Part shown: piece by piece, positions 5,501 to 38,406 of the stretch | How the letters are laid out: each line of letters begins with the position of its first letter | Numbering within the stretch: the stretch's first letter is position 1 | Origin: a virus | DNA length: 39,318 nt | Reading direction: 5' to 3' (one strand) | IMG/VR virus record: IMGVR_UViG_3300042691_035686 | Location: 1 to 39,318 of that record | Translations under genes and position numbers: made by a program | Notes under the pieces: model-generated | Databases searched by the model: none | Seen by the model: only the letters and a program-made list of their open reading frames with translations | Told to the model about the DNA's origin: nothing

Positions 5501-7551
5501 ACACAGAAAGAAACAGAAAACCAGATACAATAGAATTTTTTGTAAAACCAAGCACTGCAGGGGATTATGATATTATCCAAAGTGATAATGGAATGGTGTT
5601 GAATATAAGTGGTAGTGGTGAATATGGTGTTGTAACATTTAACTATGTAGGAAACGAAGTTAAATCTTCTACATTACCTATATTCAATGGTAAGTTCTTT
5701 GGTATAGAAGTTAGTAGAGAAGTTAGTGGAAGTTATCATAATTTTGAATTAAATATTAGACAAGCGGATAAGGAAAGAACAATATTCCAACAAGCAAATT
5801 CATCATCAATACTTGCCGCATCTTCTGCTTGGAATAATGGTTCATATATTCGTCTGGGTAATGATTTTGTAGGTACAATAGATGAATTCCGTTTATGGTC
5901 TACTCCATTAGATAAAGAAAGATTCTATGAACACGTTTCATTTCCTGAAATGATTAATGGAAATCACGTATCAGCATCAACTGATGATTTATACTTTAGA
6001 TTAGATTTTGAATATCCAAAAAATTTAGCAGTTAGTTCTTCTTTAATAAATGTTGATACTAACATGTATTTTAGTGGAAGTCTTACAAGAAATGATTATG
6101 AAGAAAATATAGGAACTACAATATATTCTGTAAACCCTTCTGCATCTTTTAGTGCATCAGCTTATAATTTTGTATCATCTTATACATATCCATATCAATT
6201 TGAAGTTATAGATAGAACTGTTGTATTGGAAATGCCAGATGCTGGTTCATCTAGATATTCAACAAATAAAGTTCGTTTTGAAACACAATATACTTTAAAT
6301 GGACAAGAAATATCAGGAAGTAATGGTGTTGATTTATCTGTAAAAAGTAGAGCAACTAAAAAAGCATTTGACCAATCTCCTACCGATTCAAACAGAGTTG
6401 GTTTATTTTTCTCACCTACAAAAGAATTAAATATTGATATTGCTAAATCTTTAGGTGGATTAAATTTAGATAATTATATTGGTGACCCAGCTGATAGATA
6501 CAAAGATACTTACAAACGTTTAGATGATTTAAGACACTATTATTTCCAAAGATTTGATGGAAGAGATATCTACCAATACATCAATTTAATCAAACTTTAC
6601 GAGAAATCAATGTTTGATGATATCAAGAAGATGTTGCCGGCAAGGGTTAAAGCAACTACCGGTTTACTAATTGAACCACATTTCTTAGAAAGAAGTAAAA
6701 TAGCAAAAAATAAACCTACTGGTGAGAATGAACAGTATAATGTTGATATACATTATGATGAAACTACATTTGTTTTATCTGAAAACTCTCAAAGAGAAGC
6801 TTTTATAGATGCAAATTTGAGTGAAAATATTTTTGGAGAAAACAACCAATATGATGGAATAATTTATACGGCTTCAATTGATAAAATAGTATCAGATTCT
6901 TATCAATATGAAACAAATATAGGGTGTAACTCAACAACATTAGCTACTTCTGATTATTATCAAAAAACAGCTTCAATAGATGCGGGATTAGATGCCACAA
7001 CTATTCTTAGTGAAATTGATATTATTAATTCAAATTTAGTAGTTGGACAAACACCATATGAAACCGTAGGTTTTGGTATTTATGGACAAAATGGATATGC
7101 TATTAGAACATATATTGATGCGGATGGTATTACTAAAAAAGAAAGAATTAAAGTTGATTTAATTAAAGAACAAAAACAAAGAGATATTGTTAAGTATAAA
7201 GTTGTAGTTGGTGGTAAGGGAGATGAAAGAGGAGGATTAGAATTAACTTCTTCTGTATATTATGAAACTTATTTGAATATTCAACCATTTTCCGGTTCAA
7301 AAACAATAAACGCAGGAACGGGTAGTATAGTTAGTGTAACACCTTTAAGTGGATACTTACCAACTCATTATAGAAAAACTTCCGATTTAACAAGAGGATT
7401 AGAAAATTCTTTCTTTAGAGGTTCAAAAAATACAGCAGCTACTACATTAGATGGTACACCTCCTGTTGAAGTATTTACTACTAACCCTAATACTCTAAGA
7501 GTAAATAAAGCAGGTAGAGATGCAAGTGAACCAATTTTGGAAGTAGAATAA
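2533..7551 (+). CDS. Giant baseplate/tail structural protein with LamG-like domain
   Basis: The 1672-residue product starts with a low-complexity Gly/Ser/Thr/Asn segment (about 15-38) and continues as several beta-sandwich-like units. A helical block around 800-950 contains the segments LPYLLKHKGTRRGI and SCYGIPSSNLSI, which I recognise from large structural proteins of marine T4-like phages. A concanavalin A/LamG-type fold follows at about 965-1150 (VQFDW, TIEFFVKPS, GTIDEFRLWSTPL). Near 1370-1390 the segment PARVKATTGLLIEPHFLERSK resembles a conserved C-terminal element of phage tail proteins. These features fit a baseplate wedge or tail-tip component that may bind carbohydrate through the LamG domain. 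No enzymatic motif was seen. It is likely expressed late from the ATATTTATA element just upstream. The exact T4 counterpart cannot be stated. Confidence 0.8.
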   Translation: MAVSVDNILSDENFGGGGSAETTSGGGSSSNTNTNTNGTIKLYLSSNENTEFFDGTTSLGSGLTVTSQFSPSLTFGSSRTYTAKIDGRIAKNYFKVNVDSFQNGYNPVTGQPTYQERVIIKEYVLRDGSDTEYEEKDSKQIASTTISEALYFSFKPITDVGSNNNVKTTSTVNYEVGFGSNFKNELGEILTLEYKIVKGSDIIDSDSLKLVSGDTDGKNISSSNIENAEVYFKITGVLPSGFSYKTIYYTSVNNANLHPTDFSKWEIGNADFKVSAKELEKGGVAVYVILERKELVAKPIVELITTNYTKQVKDSDSDTYVNVDFVAKDADFVDVYVSKDDVRRINAGEGFIKLSFKNDFKGIFGQKKIYLVAIGDLYGTGEKTEAIISFTSVNDFPSITEIVFPDTIDVPSFSDLQIDYTISYKTFSASSVNVDLLLKDKSKVSLFKNLTPNNEFKINLRKLAETYPNWNGSDNVTLILKPFNKSGDVELEGNEYEIITNIVYPAIQLDEDIIKKSIYDAFIEKLKFTEPEKESKYLTHLANFGNSEQVLISSWESDDWTLSTKKIDSLGNEVVDKEVNSTILKLYSPLPSNINTNSTFWITKLLTNPLIETVVLNEQDDTKCPPIKGPNFSVEVDFVTGKSTGYESLDDLILSSSVSSSSNLVSTYLSSSFIDTDSLNIEYASGSEYLWNNFVHFSSAKERVDNFVYKVQLIEAYETLIVSASNGAGSIAELNEKERQTLKKNQLIQGFDGFEKFLYTSSSFTLSTASSLTWPYNGNARISAENTIVKNWYANLIELAETYDVQNPNWVQNNIPQYIVTNAENDSLLLFFSMIGQHFDNIYYHTKAIEKSRGLGYKSKGGISDKILFDTLKSLGWDAKNLAADAKLWEYAFGLDSNGSTKYETPAKKRTYEVWRRIVNNLPYLLKHKGTRRGIYAIMSCYGIPSSNLSILEFGGPEVTDETKGKYEFDNITTGLKFTSGAYVQFDWKNTERNRKPDTIEFFVKPSTAGDYDIIQSDNGMVLNISGSGEYGVVTFNYVGNEVKSSTLPIFNGKFFGIEVSREVSGSYHNFELNIRQADKERTIFQQANSSSILAASSAWNNGSYIRLGNDFVGTIDEFRLWSTPLDKERFYEHVSFPEMINGNHVSASTDDLYFRLDFEYPKNLAVSSSLINVDTNMYFSGSLTRNDYEENIGTTIYSVNPSASFSASAYNFVSSYTYPYQFEVIDRTVVLEMPDAGSSRYSTNKVRFETQYTLNGQEISGSNGVDLSVKSRATKKAFDQSPTDSNRVGLFFSPTKELNIDIAKSLGGLNLDNYIGDPADRYKDTYKRLDDLRHYYFQRFDGRDIYQYINLIKLYEKSMFDDIKKMLPARVKATTGLLIEPHFLERSKIAKNKPTGENEQYNVDIHYDETTFVLSENSQREAFIDANLSENIFGENNQYDGIIYTASIDKIVSDSYQYETNIGCNSTTLATSDYYQKTASIDAGLDATTILSEIDIINSNLVVGQTPYETVGFGIYGQNGYAIRTYIDADGITKKERIKVDLIKEQKQRDIVKYKVVVGGKGDERGGLELTSSVYYETYLNIQPFSGSKTINAGTGSIVSVTPLSGYLPTHYRKTSDLTRGLENSFFRGSKNTAATTLDGTPPVEVFTTNPNTLRVNKAGRDASEPILEVE

Positions 7552-21654: not shown

Positions 21655-24600
21655 TATTAGAATAGGTGATTTAGGTTCATCAGCCGGTTTAAATACTGCA
21701 ACTACTACCGTAAGTGGTTCATATGTTGCTACTCAATTTTTAACCGGATCAGTTAGTGGTATTAGAGATTTACCAAACACACCTGGAACATTAACTGGAA
21801 CTGGTGCAAGACTATATGGTGATCAGTATGAGTTTATAGAATTTGAAGGAAAAATTCCTGTTATTACAATAAATACATTAACATCTCCTGCTAATACAAA
21901 TCCTCAATCCGGTAAGAGATTAGATTTTACTTACACAATTACTGGAATGCAACCAGGTGAAACTGGATATGTAAAAATTTGGGTTAATGGTTCATATACT
22001 GGAACAAATACATCTACTATTAATGGAAATGTATCAGATGTTCCTGATTTTTATGTAGATAATTCAAATACATATATAATTCCAAATTCTACAAATACTT
22101 TAAGATTAGAATTAAGAATAAACTCATCAAATAAACAAGCAAACGATTCAAAAACAGTTTTTGTAAATGCGATTGACTTAACTATAACTTCTGTGGTACT
22201 TTCTCCATCTTTTACAGGAGCGGGTACATATAATTACACAACGGGTTCGGTTGGATTTACAGTAAATGTAGCAGGAGGTATATCTCCATACTATTATGAT
22301 TTCAATGGAGCAGGTTATGGATCAGCAGATGCAAATACTTCTACATTCAATAACGCAAGTACAACAACAGATGATGCATATTTAATACAAGTTAAAGATT
22401 CGGCAGTTCCGTTTGATACTGCAACAAATACACCAACTACTTTTAGAAGGCCAATAGCAGTATCTATTAGTACAACTACTTCTGCAGAACCGTATGTTGC
22501 ATATTCTGTAAATTCAACAGTGTCGTATAATGTTGATGCAGTTGCAATTGATTACGCATGGGTTGTAACTGGAGCAAGTATATCTACCGGAACAACTCAA
22601 AATTTATCACTTTATTACAATACATTAGGTGCACAATCGGCTAGAGTTAATATTACAAATAGTAGTAATACTAGTATAAGAAATCATGCAATTACTTCTA
22701 TAACAGTTGCAATGGTTTCTCCTTCAATAAGTGCAACATATAGTGCATTTAGTGAAACTTTTCTTGTAAATGTTACAGCACTAACTGCAGCTGCAGGTGC
22801 GGCCAGACTACGATATGATATAGATTATGCATTAAAAGATAGTGGTGGTTCTTATGGTGCATGGACTTCTTTGGTTTCAAACGGAACAAGTACAACACCT
22901 TCTGTTTCTATTGCAGGAAAAACAACAATTGCTCAATATGCAAAAGCAAGAGTTAGAGCAAGAAGAGCTTTGGCAGATGGTTCAAATGAATACCTATCAG
23001 GATATACAGAAACCGGAGATATATTAATACCACAAAAAGGTGTTTTAACAATTGCCGATCAAGATTATATTTTAACAGGTGCAAATAGAACATTTACTGG
23101 AACGGTCACAATCGGTGGATCAAACGATAATAGTTTTTCCGTAACAAGTGTATCTTCAACAACAACAGATAGTACGGTAACTGCTTCCGGAGCAAGAACA
23201 TCGGCCGGTGTAATAACAATAACTGTAAACAATCCATGTACTTCCGTAAACGATGGAACTTCAACACATACCGCTACAATAACAGATGGTAATGGTTATG
23301 TTTTAACTGATAACTTTACGGTTCGTTATAAAATACTTGCTAGTCAAATTGGGTTATCTGTTGAATGGTCAAACGGAAATCCATATAACAATACTTATAA
23401 TTTCATTTCTAGAACGATTAGTACGGATTTTACATTAGGAAGTTTTCAATATAATGATGGTACTGGTTATACAAATGTATATAGTGGAGGAACTTTTATA
23501 AGTTCTGATAATTATACTGCACCAACTGCAAATCAAACTTGGTATTATAGAGTAAAAGCGTCTGGTGGTACATATAGAGAATCTGATTTTAACGAAACTT
23601 CGGTATTGGTATATGGATATCCAAATCAAAGTTATGGATATAGTACATCGGTTAGTCCTACTGCATCTCCAACATTACAACAGGCAGAATCTTTAACTTT
23701 AACAGTCAGTAGAAGTAGCGGAAACTTTAATTTAATATCTGCTACTTGGACTCCAACTTTACCAAACGGAACAACATTAACTCAGCAATCCAGAAGTGAT
23801 GCACAAATATCAGATACGGCTGGTAGTTTTTCTTTTGATGCCGTTGATTTTTATAGATCAAATTGTGATCCGGATGCAGTTGGTAGTAGAACTCAAAACA
23901 TTACACTAAGATATAATATTGATGCATCTAAATACTACACTCATACTTTAGATCAAAATATAACAGTTTACAGACAACCTGGAAGTATTACAACTACCAA
24001 ACATAGTGGATTTGTATCAGGATATGCAAGAAGAGGTATATCTTTTGTATTAAGAACCACATTTTTTACTGGAGGGCCACCATACGCTGAATCATTTAGT
24101 GGAACATTTCACGCTTATTTAAATGATTCGGACTGGCCATCGTTTCCATCTGACCTTTTAACCCAAGTTGATGATGAAAATACTTCACTTGGATTTTTTT
24201 CTGGAAATAGTTTTGGTATAACATATGGTGATTCAACTTATTGTAGGAAATATTTTGAAAAAGATTTCGCTTATACATCTAATAGAAATATATCAGGTAC
24301 TACAAAGAATTATTATGGAGCAGAATATAATGTAGTACAATATACAACATTTCCAGAACCATTTTATAAATTTGTTTATGCTGGTAATGCCAATTCAACA
24401 AGTATAGGTGTTGTAATAAGGGGAAGAAGGGCTACGACATTCAATGCTGGTTATACATTTACAGCTACTGCAGATGGTGTTGGTAGTACAAATATAGGTA
24501 GTATAGGTGGTGGTAATTGGAGTAGTAATATAAAGGGTGATGATGGGGCATGTGATATTTCTTTAGATGGGTTAGTAATTACATATCAACGTTCTTCTGA

Positions 24601-26340: not shown

Positions 26341-26805
26341 ATGAATTTACTTGAAAATATAAAATATAACGAAAATTTGATTAAAAAAATTATAGATTTA
26401 AAACCAAAAATAAATTCTATAACAGGATATTGCCCATCGGAAGAAATATATAAAATTGCGTTTATAGACTCTACAAAAGTTTTAAAACAACCAAATTATT
26501 TTAAAATTGATGGAATACTGTTTCATCCGGATTCTTATGTATTATATAAAAACGAAGAAGATCTTATAACAGAAATAAGAGTAATAGATTTATATAATCA
26601 AATAGAAATTGGAAATAAAATAAAAATATTAAACTATTATTTAAATGAAATAGAAATAAATAATATTGAATATGTTAAAATGCCTGTTACTCGTTCTGGA
26701 CATTTTTTAGATATAAAATGTTTAAATACATCTGTGTTTGTTCCATATACGGAAAAACAAATACTTATAAGAGATACAATTTATGTGTATCCAAAAGGAA
26801 AATAG
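26341..26805 (+). CDS. Hypothetical protein between the Hint fibre and the glycosyltransferase
   Basis: The 154-residue product is rich in Ile, Asn and Lys and seems beta-rich. It has segments ITGYCPSEEIYKIAFIDS, FKIDGILFHPDSYVLY and VTRSGHFLDIKCLNTSVFVP. I do not recognise a family. It starts 2 bases after the Hint fibre stop and ends 2 bases before the glycosyltransferase, so the three are almost certainly cotranscribed. Plausible roles are a fibre assembly factor, a fibre-tip subunit or a partner of the glycosyltransferase. It has no signal peptide or membrane segment that I can see. No motif decides between these options. Confidence 0.65.
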   Translation: MNLLENIKYNENLIKKIIDLKPKINSITGYCPSEEIYKIAFIDSTKVLKQPNYFKIDGILFHPDSYVLYKNEEDLITEIRVIDLYNQIEIGNKIKILNYYLNEIEINNIEYVKMPVTRSGHFLDIKCLNTSVFVPYTEKQILIRDTIYVYPKGK

Positions 26806-26807
26806 TT

Positions 26808-28214
26808 ATGGTAAAAAAGCTTGGTATATGTATTCCTTATAGAGATAGGGAATATCATCTTAAAATGTTGGTCCCACATCTTACAAAATTCTTAAACAAA
26901 AAAGGAATACCACATTCATTTTATATTGCTCATCAAACGGATGATAAATTATTTAATAGAGGTACAATGAAAAACATTGCAGCAAAACACGCATTTGAAG
27001 ATGGGTGTGATTATGTTGCGTTCCACGATGTAGATATGTTACCAGAAAATGATAGCTGTGATTATTCTTATCCAGAAAAATATCCAACTCATATTGCAAC
27101 GGCTGTTTCAAAATACAAATATAAATTAAATTACGAACAATATTTTGGAGGAGTTGTATTGTTTAACAAAGAGCATATTGAAAAAACCAATGGTTATTCA
27201 AATGATTATTGGGATTGGGGTATGGAAGATGATGACCTTTTTTGGAGATGTCGTTTTGAAGGGTTAACGGAAGATAATTTATTTTCGGAATATAATGATG
27301 TTTCTTGTTTTAATTTTAATGGTGAAACATCATATATAAAAATTCCAATGGATAAAAATATATCGGAACTTTTGTCAAAATCACATACATTATCTATTTT
27401 ATGTAATGTTGAAGAACAGACAGATAAATACAAAGAATGGTTAATAGGTTTAGATAATAAACAATTTGTTGAATATCCTATATTTGCAATGAACAAACAA
27501 AAATCATATTTTATAGGATTTAATAATTCAAGAGCAATAAGTTCTACATTATATACAGAGGATGATAATCAAATATATTCTTGGATAAAAAGAGGGTTTA
27601 AAGAATGGACATGGATAACAATATCGGTAGATTCAAACGAAAATAAAATATATTTTTATTGTAATTCTAGTTTAATAAAAAACACAAAAACACAAACACT
27701 CGAGTACTCTCCATACGAATATACTGGTGAATTAAAAAATTATATAGAAGATATCTTTATTGGAAAAAATCCATGTTCAGATTGTAATCCTATAATAGCA
27801 AAATATTTAAAAGGAAAAATAGCGGGAATTAAATTGCACAATGAAGTAGTTTTACCGAAAAATATAGAAGATTTTTTAAAGAACAAAAAAGATATAGTAT
27901 TTGATTTAAATGATAATACTTTATCTGAAATAAATGATGTATCTATAACAAAGGAAAACTTTATTGTAAGTAGTAATAATCTACCATATAGGAGAAATGG
28001 TAGATTTTATTCGTTACCACACCCAAGTGAAGGATTTGTAGAAGGTAGATGGGCTAAGGGAGAAACAACCGCTAAAAACGAAAAAAGATTTGTTAAAGAA
28101 ATGCAAGAAGGTAAAATTAATTATAAAAAAGATGGAATCAATCAAATTAAGTATGAATTGGTTTCAAAAGAGTTATATACGGACAATGCCTGGATGATAA
28201 ATGTAAAACTTTAA
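26808..28214 (+). CDS. GT7-type galactosyltransferase interrupted by a LamG-like lectin domain
   Basis: The 468-residue product begins MVKKLGICIPYRDREYHLKM, the nucleotide-sugar-binding start of beta-1,4-galactosyltransferase-like (GT7) enzymes. The metal-binding FHDVDML (Asp74-x-Asp76), YFGGVVLFNKEHI and YWDWGMEDDDLFWR (134-147) are all present. At about residues 168-385 a concanavalin A/LamG-like domain is inserted (FNFNGETSYIKIP, KEWTWITISVDSNENKIYFY). The GT7-like end then resumes (YRRNGRFYSLPHPSEG, WMINVKL). The enzyme should transfer a sugar from a UDP-sugar; donor and acceptor are unknown. An ATG at 26718 would add 30 residues and overlap the upstream gene by 88 bases, so I chose 26808, which leaves a normal 2-base gap. 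Its position beside two fibre genes suggests glycosylation of a fibre, or of a host or progeny surface. Confidence 0.87.
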   Translation: MVKKLGICIPYRDREYHLKMLVPHLTKFLNKKGIPHSFYIAHQTDDKLFNRGTMKNIAAKHAFEDGCDYVAFHDVDMLPENDSCDYSYPEKYPTHIATAVSKYKYKLNYEQYFGGVVLFNKEHIEKTNGYSNDYWDWGMEDDDLFWRCRFEGLTEDNLFSEYNDVSCFNFNGETSYIKIPMDKNISELLSKSHTLSILCNVEEQTDKYKEWLIGLDNKQFVEYPIFAMNKQKSYFIGFNNSRAISSTLYTEDDNQIYSWIKRGFKEWTWITISVDSNENKIYFYCNSSLIKNTKTQTLEYSPYEYTGELKNYIEDIFIGKNPCSDCNPIIAKYLKGKIAGIKLHNEVVLPKNIEDFLKNKKDIVFDLNDNTLSEINDVSITKENFIVSSNNLPYRRNGRFYSLPHPSEGFVEGRWAKGETTAKNEKRFVKEMQEGKINYKKDGINQIKYELVSKELYTDNAWMINVKL

Positions 28215-28298: not shown

Positions 28299-31200
28299 AT
28301 GAATTTAATAAAAGAAGTGAATAAACCAGAAGTTAAAAAAACAGTAGTAATATATGCTGGTCGTTTTCAACCATTCCACAGAGGACATCATGATGCTTAT
28401 CAAAGATTAGTTTCTAAGTTTGGTGAATCAAATGTCTATATAGCTACATCTAACGATACATCTTCAGAAAAATCTCCATTTACTTTTAAAGAAAAAAAAC
28501 AGATAGCTACTCAAATGTTTGGAGTTCCTTCTTCAAGATTTGTTAGAGTTTCAAATCCATATAGACCCGTAGAAATATTAGGAAAATTTGATGGAAAAAC
28601 TACTGCATATATTGCAGCGGTAGGAGAAAAAGATGCTGATAGATTAAACGGAAAATATTTTAAACCATATAAGAATAAATCGGGTTATGGTTATGATGAA
28701 ATTGGTTATACATATCCTATTCCACCGGAGGCAAATCCAATTAGTGGTACTCAGGTTAGAAAAGGATTAGGAAGCGGTGATAAAGATAAAGCAAAATCAT
28801 TCTTTCTTAAAGCATACCCAAAATTTGATAAAGAGATATTCAAAATGATAACAGGTAAATTAAATGAAAATTTTATAAAAGGTTATCCATCAAAAGAAGA
28901 TGTTAAAAAAATACAAAAGAAAAACGATGATATTCGTTCAGTAGCTACTACGGATGATTCGTATGTATATGACCCAATTGGAGAAATAATAAATAGAATT
29001 GTAGATGAAGAAGCTTTTCAACATTTTTTAAAAGAATATTTGAATGAAGATGATGATGCAGCAACAATGGGATTAACTCATTTAGGAGGTGGTTATTATG
29101 GTAAAGATAAAAAAGGACCTGCAACACATAAAAGAGAAGATGGTAATATAAGACCATTAACACCTGCAGAAATAGATGCAGAAAAAAAGAAACAAATGGC
29201 AAAGGGCCCGTCCGATGCACCTGCAAATGAACCCAAACCATCACAACCTGGCCAACCGGTTAATAAAGGGGTAACTGCGCAGGGTAAAATAGATAAAAAG
29301 AAAGAAGAACCAACTAATAAAAAGGCCGGAGAAGAAATTCCTAAACCAGAAACACCACCAGAACAAAAATTAAGTAGTGGAGAATTAAAATCAGGTGCAG
29401 AAAAAAGAGCAAGTGGTGAAGAAAAAGAATTATCGGGTGAGGAATTAGAAACTAAAGAAAAATTAGATAAAGTATTATCTACTATGGATGAACAATCCAA
29501 AAAAGAAGTAGAAGATACGAATAATCCTGATTCCGAAGTAAGAAAAGGAATGTTTAATAAAGTAAAAGACTGGTGGGATAAAACTAAAAAAACTACGGTA
29601 GTTGGTAGATTTATAGAGAAAAAAAGACAGCAATATAAAAATACAGGTACCGCGATTAACAACTTAATGCATGGTAGACGTGTTGGTTCAATTGTAGATC
29701 CTGAAAGTGGAAATCATTTTCATTATAAACAAGTTCAAGAAAGAGATGAGAATGGTAAATATCTTTACGATGAAGAACCTATATACAAAAAGGATAAAAA
29801 AGGAAATGTTGTTAAAGATAAAGAGGGTAATCCAATTCAAGATAAAAATTGGTTAGGAAAACCAAAAACTAAGAAAATTCCTAGACTAATGGATGGAATA
29901 GATGAACATACCAAACATCTTGCACATGAATCCCAACACGCTGAACATGAACAAAAACACGCATTAGTTCACACAGGAATTGAAGTTGGATTCTTAATAG
30001 CAGGAGTTAGTATGGCGGGTGGTATAGCAGCTGGTGCTGGAACGGTTGGTAAAACGATAGCTAAAGATTTAGGAAAACATGCAACATTAGAAATTTTAGG
30101 AGTTGAAAACCCAATAGTTGCGGGTAGTGGTGGGCTTGCAGCTGCACACTTTACACATCATTTATTGGAAGGTTTGTATTTAAAAGAAAACTCTAACGAA
30201 ATAGATGAAACTAAATTGTTTTCAAATATTGTAGAAGCTACAATGGAAAAAATGAAAACATATAAGTTATCTGATAAACAATTATTGAAAACATTAGAAA
30301 AATATCAAAAAGAAAAACCTAAAAAAGATTTAGAAAATTTATTAAAAGAAAACCTTTCAGAAACAAAACAACAATCAATTCAACATTTCGTAGAGTTTGC
30401 AACTAAAAGATTAAAGTTAAAAGAAACTCCAAAAATTAATTTAGTTGGTGGTAGAGAATTTGCAGAAGTAAAAAGTAGTTTAGGTGGGTTTAATCCTGAT
30501 ACAAAAGAAATATACGTTGCAACCGAAGGCCGATTAACCGCAGATATATTAAGAACCCTTGCACATGAAATGGTTCATAGAAAGCAAGATGAGTTGGGAT
30601 TGGTTAGAAATCCAATGAAAGATGGTGCGGATGGTTCTCCAATAGAAAACCAAGCACATGCAGTTGCTGGAATATTAATGAGAGAATATGGTAGAGTTAA
30701 TAAGCAAATTTATAACGAAGATGTTAATGTAGATGTTGATAAAGGTGATACTATCTTAATGGGCAAATTCAAAAATAAGAAAGTACAGGTTAAAGATATT
30801 GGAAAAGACCAACATGGGATGCCAACTATTAATGGAAAGCAGGCAACTACATTTCGTAAAATAGATGAAATGGGATCTAAAGATGTTCATTTTTCTAATA
30901 TCATTAGATTATATAAAGATTCTAAATTCAAAAAAAGAATAAATGCATATTTGTTTGGTAACCCAAATGTAAATAAACCAAATGATGTTGCAAGAGCTTT
31001 AAGAAATATGGGATATGATGAAATAACTCAAATGGAAAAGGAGTTAAATATAAAACCAAATTTTGATGAGCAACTTGCAGAATTATATAAAGATATTGAA
31101 AAGTACTTATTAGAAGTAAGTGCATTATCAGGAGATGATGCACAACCGGATGGTAGTTATTTACCAAAAGGAGCTACAAGAAAACTTGACGGAAACGATG

Positions 31201-32573
31201 GTGCTAATAAAGGAGATGATTGGTTTTATAGTGGAGGATATACTCAAATGGATTTCCCAGTAGCAGATGGTATTTTTGGAGATGAAGATGAAAGTAGATT
31301 GACTGTAAGATATTCTGCAAGAAATCTACCTAGATTTGATGAAGCTCCAACTAAGTTCTTAAAAGAAGGTTTACTTTTAGAAGGTGGTGCATATGGACAT
31401 ATGAGCCATCCATTTGATGATATGGATTTAACTTTTGGTGACCTTAAAAATATTATCACAAAGGCACTTAATGGTGATTTGGGTGTAGTTAGAGAAAAAA
31501 CTGATGGACAAGCATTAGCAATTAGCTGGAAGAATGGTAGATTAATCGCGGCACGTAATAAAGGCCATTTACAAAACTCAGGAGCAAGTGCAATGGGTAT
31601 TGAAGATGTTGCATCAAAATTTGGTGGTAGAGGTGGACTAACTGATGCATACAATTTTGCAATGAAAGACTTATCTGCAGCTATTGCATCTTTATCTCAA
31701 AAACAGAGAGAAAAGATATTCGGAGAAGGAAGTAAATTTATGAACATTGAAGTAATTTGGCCTACATCTGTTAATGTTATTCCATACGGCCAGGCTTTAT
31801 TAGTTTTTCATAATTGTATTGAATATGATGTAAAAGGAGTTGCAATTGGTAAAGTGGATGGTGCAGAAAGTGTTTTAGCTGGAATGATTAAGCAAGTAAA
31901 CGCCGATGTTCAATCTAAGTATACTATACAAGGTCCACCAATTACAGAAATACCAAAATCAGATAACCTAAGTTCAAAGCAAGGAAAATATCTTTCAAAA
32001 CTATCAAAGCTACAATCTGAATTTAAATTAAATGATTCCGATAATGTTGCGGATTATCATCAAGCTTGGTGGGAAGATTTTATAAATAAAAAATCACCTG
32101 TAAAAGTTGATAAACTTACAAAAGAAGCATTGGTAAGAAGGTGGGCGTTTGGAGATAAGAGCTTTCGTTTAAATACAATATCAAACCCCAAGCTGCAAGA
32201 ATGGGCAATGGAGAATGATAAAGTAAATGTAGCAAAGCAACAAAAAGATAATATAAAACCATTTGAAGAAATATTCTTAGGAGTTGGTGCAGATGTTTTA
32301 GAATTTGTTGGAAGTGTACTGACGGTACATCCAGATAAGGCAATACGTTCAATGAAATCAAGATTAAAATCAGTAGCAGACCAGGTTAAAACTTCTGGAA
32401 ACCCTGCCCAAATTCAAAAATTAAAACAAGAATTAAGTAGATTGAATAAACTAGGTGGTATAGATAGAATCGTTGCAAACGAAGGAATAGTATTTTTTTA
32501 TAATGGAAAAACATACAAACTTACGGGTACATTTGCACCACTAAATCAGATACTTGGTATTTTTTATGAATAA
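28299..32573 (+). CDS. Multienzyme protein: nucleotidyltransferase, zincin and ligase-like domains (possible head polyprotein)
   Basis: The 1424-residue product has three enzyme-like parts. Residues 14-187 form a NMN adenylyltransferase/cytidylyltransferase fold: GRFQPFHRGHH (HxGH at 27-30) and ISGTQVR (148-154). After a Pro/Glu/Lys-rich linker and one hydrophobic stretch (about 564-585), residues 640-800 look like a zinc metallopeptidase: HEMVH (756-760) and a possible third ligand Glu783 in SPIENQAHA. From 1029 a domain I know from marine phages begins GGAYGHMSHPFDD. It carries a ligase-like motif I, KTDG (1067-1070), ARNKGH, a possible motif III NIEVI (Glu1151), EGIVF (1395-1399) and a weak motif V. 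L-x-E sites fall at boundaries: Glu190, Glu250, Glu624, Glu939 and Glu1028. T4 prohead protease cleaves after (L/I)xE, so a packaged polyprotein is inferred. The unusually long spacing between ligase motifs III and IV keeps that call tentative. Confidence 0.8.
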   Translation: MNLIKEVNKPEVKKTVVIYAGRFQPFHRGHHDAYQRLVSKFGESNVYIATSNDTSSEKSPFTFKEKKQIATQMFGVPSSRFVRVSNPYRPVEILGKFDGKTTAYIAAVGEKDADRLNGKYFKPYKNKSGYGYDEIGYTYPIPPEANPISGTQVRKGLGSGDKDKAKSFFLKAYPKFDKEIFKMITGKLNENFIKGYPSKEDVKKIQKKNDDIRSVATTDDSYVYDPIGEIINRIVDEEAFQHFLKEYLNEDDDAATMGLTHLGGGYYGKDKKGPATHKREDGNIRPLTPAEIDAEKKKQMAKGPSDAPANEPKPSQPGQPVNKGVTAQGKIDKKKEEPTNKKAGEEIPKPETPPEQKLSSGELKSGAEKRASGEEKELSGEELETKEKLDKVLSTMDEQSKKEVEDTNNPDSEVRKGMFNKVKDWWDKTKKTTVVGRFIEKKRQQYKNTGTAINNLMHGRRVGSIVDPESGNHFHYKQVQERDENGKYLYDEEPIYKKDKKGNVVKDKEGNPIQDKNWLGKPKTKKIPRLMDGIDEHTKHLAHESQHAEHEQKHALVHTGIEVGFLIAGVSMAGGIAAGAGTVGKTIAKDLGKHATLEILGVENPIVAGSGGLAAAHFTHHLLEGLYLKENSNEIDETKLFSNIVEATMEKMKTYKLSDKQLLKTLEKYQKEKPKKDLENLLKENLSETKQQSIQHFVEFATKRLKLKETPKINLVGGREFAEVKSSLGGFNPDTKEIYVATEGRLTADILRTLAHEMVHRKQDELGLVRNPMKDGADGSPIENQAHAVAGILMREYGRVNKQIYNEDVNVDVDKGDTILMGKFKNKKVQVKDIGKDQHGMPTINGKQATTFRKIDEMGSKDVHFSNIIRLYKDSKFKKRINAYLFGNPNVNKPNDVARALRNMGYDEITQMEKELNIKPNFDEQLAELYKDIEKYLLEVSALSGDDAQPDGSYLPKGATRKLDGNDGANKGDDWFYSGGYTQMDFPVADGIFGDEDESRLTVRYSARNLPRFDEAPTKFLKEGLLLEGGAYGHMSHPFDDMDLTFGDLKNIITKALNGDLGVVREKTDGQALAISWKNGRLIAARNKGHLQNSGASAMGIEDVASKFGGRGGLTDAYNFAMKDLSAAIASLSQKQREKIFGEGSKFMNIEVIWPTSVNVIPYGQALLVFHNCIEYDVKGVAIGKVDGAESVLAGMIKQVNADVQSKYTIQGPPITEIPKSDNLSSKQGKYLSKLSKLQSEFKLNDSDNVADYHQAWWEDFINKKSPVKVDKLTKEALVRRWAFGDKSFRLNTISNPKLQEWAMENDKVNVAKQQKDNIKPFEEIFLGVGADVLEFVGSVLTVHPDKAIRSMKSRLKSVADQVKTSGNPAQIQKLKQELSRLNKLGGIDRIVANEGIVFFYNGKTYKLTGTFAPLNQILGIFYE

Positions 32574-33284: not shown

Positions 33285-33932
33285 ATGAAAAAATTATTAA
33301 ATTTAAAAAACATCGCAATTGCGGTATTGGTAGTAATCGTATTATTAGAATATTTTAATCCAGGTGGTAAAATGCCAGGCAGAACTGTTAGAATTGATGG
33401 TAAAAAATATGAAGTAATTAAACATGATATAGATACTTTTGAAGTTGTAAAAACAAAAGTAGTTACAAAAAAAGGTGCAGATATTTATCACGAAACAATT
33501 GTTGAAAAAGAAGTTGTAATACCTACGATAGTAGATACAGCAGCATTATTAAAAGATTTCTTCGCTAAAAATGTTTATAAAGATACATTAAGATTACCTG
33601 ATTCATTAGGAACAGTTGCTGTAACAGATACAATCACACAAAACAAAATTTTAGGTAGAACATTTAATGCAAGCGTAAAGCAGAGAGAAATTAAAGAAAC
33701 TCTTATCGTTAAAGAATTACCTAAAACACAAGTATATTACGGTTTTAATGGTGGATTTAATAAAGCAGATGTTGTATCAAATATAGGTGCAGGTGTTATT
33801 GTAAAAACTAAAAAAGATAAGATTTACCAATTAGGTGCAGGTGTTGCAAATAGAACGGTTGATGGAACAAATGGTTCTTTATCACCATATTTGGGAGCAG
33901 GTGTATATTGGAAAATTAAATTCAAAAAATAA
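33285..33932 (+). CDS. Membrane-anchored hypothetical protein
   Basis: The 215-residue product starts with a short basic stretch (MKKLLNLKN) and a hydrophobic segment of about 17 residues (IAIAVLVVIVLLEYF), consistent with a signal anchor. The rest is probably exported: a Val/Thr-rich middle (about 40-150) and a C-terminal part with repeated short Gly-rich strands (YYGFNGGFN, IGAGVIVKTKKD, YLGAGVYWKIKFKK) that suggest a small beta-barrel or beta-sheet. I do not recognise a family. It begins 6 bases after the preceding gene and its stop overlaps the terminase ATG by one base, so it belongs to the packaging operon. A lysis or envelope-related role is possible, but there is no specific evidence. 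Confidence 0.7.
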   Translation: MKKLLNLKNIAIAVLVVIVLLEYFNPGGKMPGRTVRIDGKKYEVIKHDIDTFEVVKTKVVTKKGADIYHETIVEKEVVIPTIVDTAALLKDFFAKNVYKDTLRLPDSLGTVAVTDTITQNKILGRTFNASVKQREIKETLIVKELPKTQVYYGFNGGFNKADVVSNIGAGVIVKTKKDKIYQLGAGVANRTVDGTNGSLSPYLGAGVYWKIKFKK

Positions 33933-35539
33933 TGCAAGCTCAAGCTCAACCAAAGAAGAGCCTAAAAGAGATAATTGCTGAAGAATATCGTAAGTGTGGT
34001 GCAGACCCCATTTACTTTATGAAAAAATACTGTGTAATTCAGCATCCGGTGAGAGGAAAAATACCCTTTCACCTTTATCCTTTTCAGGAGAATTGTTTAA
34101 CGGATTTTAAAGATAATCGTTTTAATATTATTCTTAAAAGTAGACAGCTGGGATTATCTACACTTTCTGCGGGTTACATTCTTTGGAAAATGTTATTTAA
34201 TCAAGACTTTAATGCGTTGGTTATTGCAACTAAAGTAACAGTAGCAAAAAACCTTGTAGAAAAAGTTAGAGTTATGCACGATTTACTTCCTGTTTGGTTA
34301 AGAGATGGAAGTAATAGTTCTGTTGAAGATAATAAACTATCACTTAAATTAAAGAACGGTTCTCAGGTAAAAGCAATTGCATCTTCTCCAGATGCCGGAC
34401 GTTCTGAAGCCCTATCCCTATTAGTTGTGGATGAGGCGGCATTCATTAGAGATATTGATGAGATTTGGTTATCGGCACAATCAACCCTATCAACGGGTGG
34501 TGCGGCAATTGTTTTGTCTACTCCAAATGGTGTTGGTAACTGGTTTCATAAAATGTGGGTTGAAGGAGAAAATGGTTCAAACGGATTTAATAATATCAAC
34601 TTACATTGGACAGTTCACCCTGAAAGAAACCAAGCGTGGAGAGACGAACAAACCCGTATTTTAGGAGTTAAAGGTGCGGCACAAGAATGTGATTGTGACT
34701 TCGTAAGTTCCGGTGATACTGTTATAGACCCTCAATTATTAATGTGGTATAAGGATACATACGTTATGGACCCAATTGAAAAGACAGGATTTGATGGGAA
34801 CTATTGGAAATGGGAACATCCAAATTATAATAGACAATATATGGTAGTAGCCGACGTAGCAAGAGGAGATGGTTCGGACTATTCTACATTTCAAGTTATT
34901 GATATAGAAGATTCATCACAAGTTGGTGAATACAGAGGTAAAATTGAAACAAAAGATTTTGGAAATTTTTTAGTAGCTGTTGCAACCGAATGGAACAACG
35001 CTTTACTTGTAGTAGAAAATTCTAATGTAGGGTGGTCTACAATTCAACAATGTATAGATAGAGGATATGGTAATTTATTTTATATGAGTGTAGATTTAAA
35101 ATACATTGATGTTGAAAAACAAATGAGTAATAAATTTTATAGAGATGAAAAGAAAATGGTTGCTGGATTTTCAACAACATCTAAAACTCGTCCATTAATC
35201 ATATCTACTTTAGACACATATATAAACGAAAAAGATATTTTAATTCGTTCATCTCGTCTTATTGATGAATTATTTACATTTATTTGGTCAGCTGGTAGAG
35301 CAGAAGCTATGAAAGGATATAATGATGACCTTACAATGGCTATGGCAATTGGATTATGGGTTAGAAACACCGCATTGAGATTAAAGCAAGAAGGTATTGA
35401 TTTAACAAAGAGCATGTTGGGAGCGACTCAAATAAACAAGTATGAAGGATTGATAACAACAAACCATTTAAAACAAAATCCATATGAAATGGATTTAGGA
35501 AAAAAAGGAACAGAGAATTTAACGTGGTTAATTGGATAA
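33932..35539 (+). CDS. Terminase large subunit (T4 gp17-like)
   Basis: The 535-residue product is the DNA-packaging motor ATPase and headful nuclease. The N-terminal ATPase has the terminase-type Walker A KSRQLGLST (69-77), Walker B SLLVVDEAAF (around 162-171, Asp167-Glu168) and the coupling motif LSTPNG (195-200). The C-terminal RNase H-like nuclease has VADVARGDGSDYS with Asp308 as the first metal ligand, a middle acidic residue in LVVENSN and the late acidic motif YNDDLTMA. Length is a little below T4 gp17 (610). It docks on the portal encoded two genes downstream. The start ATG shares one base with the preceding stop. This assignment anchors the T4-like classification of the window. Confidence 0.95.
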   Translation: MQAQAQPKKSLKEIIAEEYRKCGADPIYFMKKYCVIQHPVRGKIPFHLYPFQENCLTDFKDNRFNIILKSRQLGLSTLSAGYILWKMLFNQDFNALVIATKVTVAKNLVEKVRVMHDLLPVWLRDGSNSSVEDNKLSLKLKNGSQVKAIASSPDAGRSEALSLLVVDEAAFIRDIDEIWLSAQSTLSTGGAAIVLSTPNGVGNWFHKMWVEGENGSNGFNNINLHWTVHPERNQAWRDEQTRILGVKGAAQECDCDFVSSGDTVIDPQLLMWYKDTYVMDPIEKTGFDGNYWKWEHPNYNRQYMVVADVARGDGSDYSTFQVIDIEDSSQVGEYRGKIETKDFGNFLVAVATEWNNALLVVENSNVGWSTIQQCIDRGYGNLFYMSVDLKYIDVEKQMSNKFYRDEKKMVAGFSTTSKTRPLIISTLDTYINEKDILIRSSRLIDELFTFIWSAGRAEAMKGYNDDLTMAMAIGLWVRNTALRLKQEGIDLTKSMLGATQINKYEGLITTNHLKQNPYEMDLGKKGTENLTWLIG

Positions 35540-35561: not shown

Positions 35562-36614
35562 ATGACGCAATTAACAAAAATATTGAAAGAAGATTTAGAT
35601 AAGTGGTTTAAAGAAAAGTGGGTAAACATTGGTAAAAAAGTTGATGGAAAACACCCACCATGCGGAACTTCCGGAGAAAAAAGTGGTTATGCAAAATGTG
35701 TACCGGCTGCAAAGGCTGCTGGAATGAGCAAAAAAGAAAAAGAATCTGCAACTCGTAGAAAAAGAGCTGCACAAAATGCGGCAGGTAGAGGTGGTAGTGA
35801 TAGTAAAGGGCAAGGTAAGAAACCAATATATGTTTCTACCAAACCTAAAAACGAAGATTGGAGTGAAAAGTATAAAAATAGTATAGATTGTAATAACCCA
35901 AAAGGTTTCAGTCAAAAAGCACATTGTCAAGGACGTAAAAAACAAAATGAAATGACCATAGAAGAAAGAGTAAATTTATTTTTAGAGAAGAATTGTCCAA
36001 CTGATCCACAAAAATGGGCAGCTTCCAAAGCAGCAGCAAAATCTAAGTTTGATGTTTATCCTTCAGCGTATGCAAATGGATGGGCGGCTAAAAATTACAA
36101 ATCTAAAGGTGGTGGGTGGAAAACATGCAACGAAGGAGACTCAAATGCATTGTGTGAATGTTGGGATGGGTACAAAGAAGTGGGTGGAAAAATGAAAGAT
36201 GGTAGAATGGTGCCAAATTGTGTACCTATAAAAGAAAGCATTTCAGAAGTGGAAGAATATGATGTAGAAAACGAACAAGATACAAAAGACTTTATTAAAT
36301 TTATGAGAGAATATACTCAACAATTGGCAGAAGCTAATTGTAATTGTGTTTATGAAGCAGAGTATCAGGGTAGAAAAGTACAATTAGGAAAACCAATGCA
36401 AGGAGATGTTAAGAAGTTTAAAGTTTATGTAAAGAACGATAAAGGAAATGTTGTTAAAGTAAATTTTGGGTTCGGTGGTTCATCTGCTAAGGGTAAAAGA
36501 ATGGTTATTAAAAAAGATAATCCGGAAAGAAGGAAAAATTTTAGAGCTAGACATAATTGTGATAATCCAGGTCCAAGATGGAAAGCTAGATACTGGAGTT
36601 GTAGAGCTTGGTAA
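35562..36614 (+). CDS. Basic Cys-containing modular protein, possibly DNA-binding head protein (DUF5872-like start)
   Basis: The 350-residue product is strongly Lys/Arg-rich. Residues 1-85 (DLDKWFKEKWVNIGKKVDGK, CGTSGEKSGYAKCVPAAKAA, SATRRKRAAQ) resemble the DUF5872 module I associate with phages and large DNA viruses. A second module follows at about 145-185 (CPTDPQKWAASKAAAKSKFD, then YPSAYANGWAAKNYKSKGGGW). A third (about 195-225) has GGKMKDGRMVPNCVP. The C-terminus (about 325-350) reads RARHNCDNPGPRWKARYWSC. Function is unknown to me. High basic charge and position between terminase and portal suggest a capsid-internal or DNA-associated protein. L-x-E-type sites, for example FLEKN after residue 135, could be cleaved by the prohead protease. 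The DUF name is from memory of the pattern and is tentative. Confidence 0.75.
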   Translation: MTQLTKILKEDLDKWFKEKWVNIGKKVDGKHPPCGTSGEKSGYAKCVPAAKAAGMSKKEKESATRRKRAAQNAAGRGGSDSKGQGKKPIYVSTKPKNEDWSEKYKNSIDCNNPKGFSQKAHCQGRKKQNEMTIEERVNLFLEKNCPTDPQKWAASKAAAKSKFDVYPSAYANGWAAKNYKSKGGGWKTCNEGDSNALCECWDGYKEVGGKMKDGRMVPNCVPIKESISEVEEYDVENEQDTKDFIKFMREYTQQLAEANCNCVYEAEYQGRKVQLGKPMQGDVKKFKVYVKNDKGNVVKVNFGFGGSSAKGKRMVIKKDNPERRKNFRARHNCDNPGPRWKARYWSCRAW

Positions 36615-36657: not shown

Positions 36658-38406
36658 ATGGCAGATAAATCAGTATTAGGAAGGTTACAAAAATTATTTT
36701 CAACAAACACCATTGTTCGTAAAACACAAGATGGTGTAAAAGTAGTTGATACGGATGAGTGGCAAAATATGACCACCAATCTGGTTGACCGTTTTATGAA
36801 ATTAAAGGTTACAAATTATGGTTCAGGAACCATTGAATCATCAATGGCATATCAGCAAGTTCGTATAGATCTTTTTAGAGATTACGACTCAATGGATACA
36901 GACCCAATACTTTCATCGGCATTAAATACATATGCAGATGAATGTACGGCTAGAAATGAAATGGGAAATGTTCTTAAAATTCATCACGAAGATGATAATG
37001 TAAAGCAAATATTAGAAAATCTTTTTTATGATATTCTGAATGTAGAATTTAATCTTTGGCCTTGGACTAGAAATTTAGTAAAATACGGTGATTTATTTTT
37101 ACAACTAGAAATAGCAGAAGAAGAAGGAATTGGTATTGTAAATGTAATGCCATTATCTTCATATGAAGTTAGTAGAGTTGAACAATTTGATTTAAAAAAT
37201 CCACAAAGAGTTAAATTTGTATATGCACCATATCAAAATCCAAATGGAGCATATGGACAGAGTGCTAAAAAAGAATTTGAAAACTATGAAATAGCTCACT
37301 TCCGTTTAAACAATGATTCTAACTTTCTACCATATGGTAAATCTATGTTAGAAGGTGCAAGAAGAGTTTGGAAACAATTAATGTTGATGGAAGACGCGAT
37401 GTTAATTCATAGAGTAATGAGAGCACCTGAAAAGAGAATATTTAAAATTGATGTTGGTAATATTCCACCAAACGAAGTGGATAACTACATGCAAAAAATT
37501 ATCAATGCATCTAAAAAAGTTCCTTTCGTAGATGAAAGAACAGGTGAATATAATTTAAAATACAACATTCAAAACCTTATTGAAGATTATTATATGCCGG
37601 TACGTGGTAATGATAATGGTACTTCAATTGATACATTAAAAGGTTTAGAATACAATATGATTGATGACATTAATTACTTAAAAGGTAAATTAATGGCTGC
37701 ACTTCAAATTCCTAAAGCATATTTGGGGTTTGAAGAAGATACAAATGGTAAAGCAACTCTTGCGGCAATGGATGTTAGATTTGCAAAAACCATTGAAAGA
37801 ATTCAAAGAGTTATGGTTTCAGAATTAACAAAGATTGCAATCATTCATTTGTACGCTCAAGGTATTGATGATGACCGTTTAACAAACTTTACATTAGAAT
37901 TAACTATTCCATCCAAAATATATGAACAAGAGAAAGTTGAATTATATACTTCTAAGGTTGCATTAATTCAACAAATGCAACAAACAAAGATGTTCTCTAA
38001 AGAATGGATGTATGAAGCGATTATGGGAATGGCTAAAGATGAACAAGATGAACAAACTCTTTCAATATTAGAAGATACTAAACAACAATTCCGTTTAACA
38101 TCAATTGAAACTCAGGGAGTAGATCCTGCAAAAGAAACAGGTACAGAAGGTCCAACAAATGTGGAAGAAGAACTAAATAAATTAAAAGCAGAATTAGAAG
38201 AGGATGGTGTTGGAAGACCAAAAGATCCGGTTAGGTATGGTAAGGATGACCATCCGGAGGGAAGAGATCCATTAGGAATTAAAACTCTTAAATCAAAAGA
38301 AGGTTCTGTTAAAAAATACGTTCCAAAAAATTCATATTTAGAAGTTTTCAAAGATATGAATGGTAATAAAAAGAAGATTTTGACAGAAGATTTAACAAAA
38401 GAGTAA
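36658..38406 (+). CDS. Portal protein (T4 gp20-like)
   Basis: The 582-residue product forms the dodecameric portal at the unique capsid vertex, where assembly starts and terminase docks. The T4-type pattern is clear: DYDSMDTDPILSSALNTYAD near the N-terminus, VKYGDLFLQLEI, VMPLSSYEVSRVEQ, IAHFRLNNDSNFLPYGKSML, then RVMRAPEKRIFKIDVGNIPP, YYMPVRGNDNGTSIDTLKG and LKGKLMAALQIPKAYLGFEE. Length is near T4 gp20 (524), with an extended acidic C-terminal tail ending ILTEDLTKE. Directly upstream is an AT-rich leader with TATAAATA two bases from the ATG and a host-type promoter candidate at 36608-36638. Gene order terminase, basic protein, portal matches the T4 packaging module in outline. Confidence 0.96.
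   Translation: MADKSVLGRLQKLFSTNTIVRKTQDGVKVVDTDEWQNMTTNLVDRFMKLKVTNYGSGTIESSMAYQQVRIDLFRDYDSMDTDPILSSALNTYADECTARNEMGNVLKIHHEDDNVKQILENLFYDILNVEFNLWPWTRNLVKYGDLFLQLEIAEEEGIGIVNVMPLSSYEVSRVEQFDLKNPQRVKFVYAPYQNPNGAYGQSAKKEFENYEIAHFRLNNDSNFLPYGKSMLEGARRVWKQLMLMEDAMLIHRVMRAPEKRIFKIDVGNIPPNEVDNYMQKIINASKKVPFVDERTGEYNLKYNIQNLIEDYYMPVRGNDNGTSIDTLKGLEYNMIDDINYLKGKLMAALQIPKAYLGFEEDTNGKATLAAMDVRFAKTIERIQRVMVSELTKIAIIHLYAQGIDDDRLTNFTLELTIPSKIYEQEKVELYTSKVALIQQMQQTKMFSKEWMYEAIMGMAKDEQDEQTLSILEDTKQQFRLTSIETQGVDPAKETGTEGPTNVEEELNKLKAELEEDGVGRPKDPVRYGKDDHPEGRDPLGIKTLKSKEGSVKKYVPKNSYLEVFKDMNGNKKKILTEDLTKE

Follow-up and report, generated by a model that had tools for sequence, protein, structure and literature searches.

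A stretch of 39,318 bases from a virus (IMG/VR record IMGVR_UViG_3300042691_035686, positions 1 to 39,318; referred to throughout as the window) encodes at positions 28299-32573 a chain of 1424 residues that we interpret, with a probability of about 0.73, as a modular, head-packaged polyvalent polyprotein whose enzymes would be separated by the prohead protease. A packaged polyprotein had been proposed in a preliminary description of the same DNA, and the parts of that proposal that can be tested on sequence held: joints fall at domain borders, cleavage motifs are retained in relatives, and an S77 protease is encoded by those relatives. The chain also starts with a peptide resembling that of T4 Alt, a feature absent from that description. 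The open reading frame (ORF) and the three motifs reported earlier (an adenylyltransferase-type domain, a HExxH zincin and a KxDG ligase-like domain in one chain) were located, and the chain was divided as follows, with ↓ marking a predicted cut.

28299..32573, + strand: modular polyprotein gene, ORF of 1424 residues with an ATG start; more than 440 relatives in IMG/VR
28299..28316, + strand: residues 1-6, MNLIKE↓, putative peptide for capsid targeting, ending at E6, the first predicted cleavage site; (L/I)xE kept in 42/42
28317..28868, + strand: residues 7-190, N-module, HIGH-superfamily NMNAT/cytidylyltransferase (HRGH, ISGT; PF01467, phrog_395)
28860..28868, + strand: site E190 (KLNE↓NF), kept in 42/42
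28869..29048, + strand: residues 191-250, variable spacer with sites E229 (DPIGE↓) and E246/E250 (FLKEYLNE↓), from the chain alignment
29049..30170, + strand: residues 251-624, disordered Pro/Lys-rich linker and then a helical/beta domain (AlphaFold model), ending at E624 (LLE↓GL)
30171..30362, + strand: residues 625-688, helical spacer ending in E684/E688 (LLKENLSE↓TKQ); E688 kept in 36/42
30363..30698, + strand: residues 689-800, zincin module (gluzincin), HEMVH 756-760 and E783; core invariant in the alignment
30699..31115, + strand: residues 801-939, small domain(s), cargo insertion region ending at E939 (LLE↓VS); insertions and swaps in relatives
31116..31382, + strand: residues 940-1028, optional module ending at E1023/E1028 (FLKEGLLLE↓GG); lost or replaced in many relatives
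31383..32570, + strand: residues 1029-1424, C-module, covalent-nucleotidyltransferase/RNA-ligase-like (EKTDG 1066-1070, EGIVFF 1395, YKLTG 1406)

Five L-x-E sites had been listed in the preliminary description, ending at E190 (KLNE↓NF), E250 (YLNE↓DD), E624 (LLE↓GL), E939 (LLE↓VS) and E1028 (LLE↓GG). All five exist; the list was incomplete, missing the N-terminal peptide with its site at E6 as well as E229 and E684/E688, and E250 proved less regular than the others, with its Glu kept in 97% of relatives and Phe often at P3 (YFGE↓), giving FxE in many of them. The chain contains 20 (L/I)xE motifs compared with 13.9 ± 3.3 after shuffling (p = 0.05), and 13 L-x-E motifs compared with 7.8 (p = 0.045). 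This count is marginal, and the earlier list of sites could therefore reflect selection, which makes conservation the test. From the more than 440 IMG/VR relatives, 42 non-redundant full chains were aligned, and (L/I)xE was kept at E6 in 42/42, E190 in 42/42, E229 in 40/41, E624 in 31/32, E688 in 36/42, E939 in 19/24, E1023 in 32/39 and E1028 in 42/42. The sequence flanking these sites and the central x position vary. Within poorly conserved surroundings, a Glu conserved at ≥95% was found in 5 of 11 (L/I)xE motifs versus 4 of 51 other Glu residues (Fisher p = 0.006). E1217 and E1301 were weakly conserved (50% and 33%), and a spacing control on the 42 chains gave no notable overall excess of (L/I)xE (1.15-fold). 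A second, more divergent sample, with C-module identity down to 66-68%, was included for the last joint, where all 51 distinct border sequences end in (L/I)xE↓GGA and the residues upstream are very unlike one another (SVISE, ESLNE, VSLLQE, SLLLE).

Exchange of modules follows the same joints. The N- and C-modules are always present and the middle modules are gained, lost or swapped, such that full chains of the first set span 937 to 1816 residues, and inserts of 60-440 residues without similarity to the window chain lie at or near E190, E250, between the zincin and E939, and between E939 and E1028. Among 670 distinct break points from all-against-all comparisons, 31.8% were located within 3 residues of an (L/I)xE, versus 6.5% of random positions; the highest of 300 simulations reached 9.3%, and control motifs gave 4-21%. 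The earlier statement that several L-x-E sites coincide with apparent domain borders is borne out by these figures, with break points ~5 times more common at (L/I)xE than at random. Pfam searches of the inserted cargo modules returned sub-threshold matches only (e.g. RegB, E 0.014-0.021). One such module, at residues ~960-1160 of L061 between the zincin and the C-module, has a sub-threshold match to the T4 RegB endoribonuclease (PF10715, E about 0.02).

The N-terminal peptide of the chain has 31 sequence variants, 4-6 residues long (MNLIKE, MNLITE, MNLNE, MSLKE, MINE and others), all with (L/I)xE. In each of 60 distinct chains (60/60), the first (L/I)xE falls at residue 4-6 or at residue 10; divergent chains start with M..xFLVETILGE↓AA or similar. 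Across two relatives, (L/I)xE was found within the first 10 residues of 8% of ORFs of at least 150 residues, a set in which the chain itself, scaffold, protease and tagged proteins account for several members. The T4 Alt protein begins with MELITE, and gp21 removes these first six residues at ITE-6 and makes a second cut at LTE-619 (PMC5694885); T4 IPII and IPIII begin with MKTYQEFIAE↓A. In a 462-kb phage, a homologue of the C-module is encoded as a separate protein that starts with MKFLKSYEEFLNENLILE↓GG, by sequence a T4-like tag joined exactly at the border used in the chain. A tag of the form M(I/L/T)KLxDLLKE↓, or a near variant, is common to unrelated proteins of these genomes, including the product of window gene 35562-36614. 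The latter gene starts with MTQLTKILKE↓DLDKW, and most of its relatives start untagged with MNEDLDKW or similar; from this comparison it looks as if a packaging tag was gained at a fixed joint, and its protein is possibly packaged as well. A tag of the form M(I/L)(K/R)LKxLLKE↓E was also observed in unrelated ORFs at L098 ~7837(-), L099 ~1618(-), L104 ~13792(-) and L197 ~18335(+), and possibly represents a family of capsid-targeting sequences of the clade that would list its injected proteins.

A gp21-like protease had been expected just downstream of the window. The window ends before the protease gene, and a PF03420 search of the window gave no match; in relatives, an S77 (gp21-type) protease lies ~2-2.5 kb downstream of the portal gene, a position beyond the end of the window. 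BLAST recovered 35 protease sequences from these relatives, with GELDHP in all and ISSRGxG in nearly all, and 12/12 first-set and 6/8 divergent-set records scored above the PF03420 cut-off. The protease of the clade matched the phrog_207 head maturation protease at E 5e-53; in L020, the closest relative, its gene spans 22009-22599. The capsid protein of the clade has QLLDE↓ATRTG in 15/15 matches, a motif that, judging from its position, would correspond to the site at which the T4 gp23 propeptide is cut.

By sequence, the N-module is a HIGH-superfamily nucleotidyltransferase, NMNAT-like, for which NMN adenylyltransferase activity is only predicted. It scored 27.3 bits against PF01467 (cut-off 21) and matched phrog_395 at E 4.9e-13; HRGH (residues 27-30) and ISGT (at 148) form the signature of the superfamily, and a profile search matched NMNAT and phosphopantetheine adenylyltransferase structures. 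In the zincin module, a probable third zinc ligand, E783, is 100% conserved downstream of HEMVH. VIA fold comparison of residues 686-798 returned first 6mdw (SPRTN-type, Z 7.6), 4jiu (abylysin, 6.6) and 4jix (jannalysin, 6.4) with ~85-101 residues aligned, and the first rows were metallopeptidases and related folds; the modelled fold is closest to SprT and the minigluzincins, with modest scores and a Foldseek E that was not significant. The C-module motifs EKxDG, RNK, EG.VF and YKLTG are invariant in 30 sequences, distant phages included, down to 35-40% identity. Its model was poor (pLDDT 62), with a Foldseek list headed by T4 RNA ligases 1/2 (E 0.24, Z about 5) and with Trl1, Rnl2 and archaeal RNA ligases among the first VIA rows at weak scores throughout, and we describe the module as RNA-ligase-like from its motifs together with this weak fold similarity. 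Profiles of the C-module and of the zincin found no relevant match when run against sequences from the PDB, and Pfam and PHROGs scans of the window chain found no ART domain, although a divergent ART could escape them.

Residues 251-624 are missing from short chains. A large model of the 838-residue middle region gave no significant Foldseek match, and region 380-625 within it matched no known fold, which is not proof of a new one. A Gly/Ala-rich hydrophobic helical stretch was observed at residues ~555-620; its type is kept in relatives while the sequence varies, and it could be membrane-active at ejection.

Homologues of the modules are found in other T4-like phages. Long-form cyanophage cytidylyltransferases belong to phrog_395, as does the N-module (S-SCSM1, E 1e-104), and a T4-type tag was present in 11/11 long forms examined (one with FxE), including MKSFLQFLKE↓A in S-SCSM1, MKNFHQFITE↓A, MKSYKEFLSE↓A, MKKFSDFLTE↓A and MRFLDFIKE↓A; short forms are untagged. 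Mass spectrometry of purified virions revealed S-SCSM1 ORF91 and the S-CREM2 cytidylyltransferase (ORF154); the authors considered that the enzymes are perhaps carried in, with carry-over from the lysate also possible (PMC9602691, PMC10665884). In S-SRM01 (L202:3941-4339 and 4572-5894), a stand-alone zincin homologue adjoins the cytidyltransferase tagged MKNFHQFITE↓A, and P-SSM2 has a gene annotated as tRNA ligase four genes downstream of its cytidyltransferase. Judging from these neighbourhoods, functions that are encoded by neighbouring genes in other T4-like phages appear to have been joined in the polyprotein. The cultured Microcystis phage Mel-JY01 has a two-module chain that lacks HExxH and keeps an (L/I)xE joint at IIAE238↓GGLGGHMNHPF, and ten divergent chains without the zincin HExxH likewise keep (L/I)xE sites. 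In Flavobacterium phage immuto, gp088 (L096:511-3234, 907 residues) has an NMNAT-like region (PF01467, E 0.03), two HExxH motifs and a weak Pol-beta NTase match; as a lead, it may be another multi-enzyme chain in a cultured phage.

From these observations we infer packaging, cleavage, injection and host-side functions in the following sequence. The polyprotein would be made late, together with the head proteins, and the hexapeptide MNLIKE would target the chain to the capsid, directing it into the core of the prohead. As the head matures, the phage's S77 protease would cut after (L/I)xE at E6, E190, E229-250, E624, E684/688, E939 and E1023/1028, yielding a ~21-kDa NMNAT-like adenylyltransferase, a ~41-kDa helical/hydrophobic module, a ~29-kDa zincin, small optional modules and a ~44-kDa RNA-ligase-like enzyme. 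The pieces would be retained in the head once it is filled with DNA and would pass along with the genome into the host, where they could plausibly protect the incoming phage through restoration of NAD+, repair of nuclease-cut RNA and proteolysis of host or DNA-linked proteins; these host-side roles are suggested by domain type alone. We lean, with some reserve, towards seeing the capsid-maturation protease as a true polyprotein protease, which would release an exchangeable, Gag-Pol-like multi-enzyme kit carried on one tag and cut for injection.

Several points weigh against separation of the enzymes by the prohead protease. Known cuts by such proteases mostly remove propeptides (13/14 are N-terminal in SPN3US) rather than separate enzymes (PMC10052503), and the motif total of the chain is near chance. 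Conserved (L/I)xE motifs also occur in the terminase and portal used as controls, though the stretches there are 85-100% conserved throughout. E709, kept in 41/42 chains, sits in the zincin fold, where the model places it between helix 1 and strand 1, and is probably structural and uncut; since E709 and perhaps E857 look structural, conservation alone is no proof of cleavage. The 31.8% of break points close to (L/I)xE is probably inflated, as relatives are not independent and local (BLAST) alignments tend to end at conserved motifs. The first two of these points would suit a packaged chain from which the N-terminal hexapeptide is removed, perhaps together with one further piece, like Alt, which is trimmed at its two ends only (PMC5694885), with the internal sites being features of flexible linkers or helix caps and the enzymes staying joined. 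We consider such end-trimming unlikely, given that the joints at E190 and E1028 are invariant in motif while P2 and flanks vary, and that cargo is swapped at the sites.

Processing by the embedded zincin, with (L/I)xE incidental, has a precedent in the self-processing by MPTase domains predicted for polyvalent proteins by Iyer et al. 2017 (PMC5512222), and most chains do have a zincin. The chains without it, namely the ten divergent ones and that of Mel-JY01, retain the joints, which is why we discarded self-processing by the zincin as the principal mechanism; the fold of the module is nearest SprT and the minigluzincins, and the joints fit the gp21-type rule, leaving this explanation very improbable. 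We give equally little credence to a late cytoplasmic enzyme fusion, neither packaged nor cut, in which conservation would mark domain boundaries only. The enzyme domains are indeed of metabolic type, but the Alt-like N-terminal peptide, the tag-like N-termini of neighbours and homologues, and the detection of NMNAT relatives in virions (PMC9602691) argue for packaging.

The packaged and cleaved polyprotein favored here shares with T4 Alt and IPII/IPIII a short N-terminal targeting peptide ending in (L/I)xE, a co-encoded gp21-type protease and predicted delivery with the DNA (PMC5694885, PMC3012670). It differs from them in having about seven joints between several enzymes, whereas each of those is one protein that is cut at a single end or at both. 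With polyvalent proteins, as presented by Iyer et al. 2017 (PMC5512222), it has in common unrelated enzyme domains on one chain, a frequent zincin, predicted co-injection and reshuffled architectures; processing is ascribed there to embedded peptidases, whereas the joints here fit a prohead protease, and the pairing of NMNAT with an RNA-ligase-like domain was not found in the passages of that paper that were searched. It also resembles the virion NMNAT/cytidylyltransferases of cyanophages (S-SCSM1 ORF91, S-CREM2 ORF154), the S-SCSM1 protein sharing phrog_395 with the N-module and the long forms being T4-tagged; those enzymes are stand-alone, however, and in some of the phages the zincin or annotated tRNA ligase is a separate nearby gene. 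The inner-head proteins of phiKZ and SPN3US (cut by gp175/gp245) offer a further parallel in their related head protease, several sites per protein and injected cargo. The head-protease motif of phiKZ is (S/A/G)xE. That of SPN3US is AxE (PMC10052503), and unlike the joints proposed here, the cuts in these two phages mostly clear propeptides.

In the open-access literature searched, no description was found of a gp21-processed multi-enzyme chain with prohead-protease sites at its joints and exchangeable cargo. Its components, namely T4 internal proteins, polyvalent proteins and prohead proteases, are already known. Internal head proteins have so far been known singly, and prohead proteases mainly for trimming propeptides; a tagged chain with protease joints would account for the packing of many different early-acting enzymes into one head, and would join the idea of the polyvalent protein to T4 head maturation. 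It would also allow hundreds of uncultured phages to be screened for injected counter-defence enzymes by a rule read from sequence, namely (L/I)xE joints together with an N-terminal tag. The NMNAT and RNA-ligase-like pair suggests a defence through NAD+ restoration and RNA repair from the first moment of infection, and the reading is directly testable in cultured relatives.

The phage is a freshwater T4-like phage. T4-like myovirus genes recognised in the window comprise SbcCD, primase, endonuclease, large terminase and a T4-type portal, and the genes downstream of the polyprotein are as follows.

33932..35539, + strand: terminase large subunit (context), phrog_2 E 6e-46
35562..36614, + strand: neighbouring protein between terminase and portal, near DUF5872, tag MTQLTKILKE↓D
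36658..38406, + strand: T4-type portal (gp20), PF07230 E 4e-74

The nearest cultured-phage matches of the portal are Mel-JY01 and immuto, and the nearest relative among the contigs compared is G001/L020 (209 kb; portal identity 96%). In several relatives, a gene for ribosomal protein S21 lies near the protease/capsid region, as it does in Bacteroidetes phages (PMC9723584), and by this parallel the host is therefore probably a member of the Bacteroidota. Directly upstream of the polyprotein gene, at window positions 26718-28214, a group-7 galactosyltransferase-like domain is fused to a weak laminin-G/lectin-like domain.

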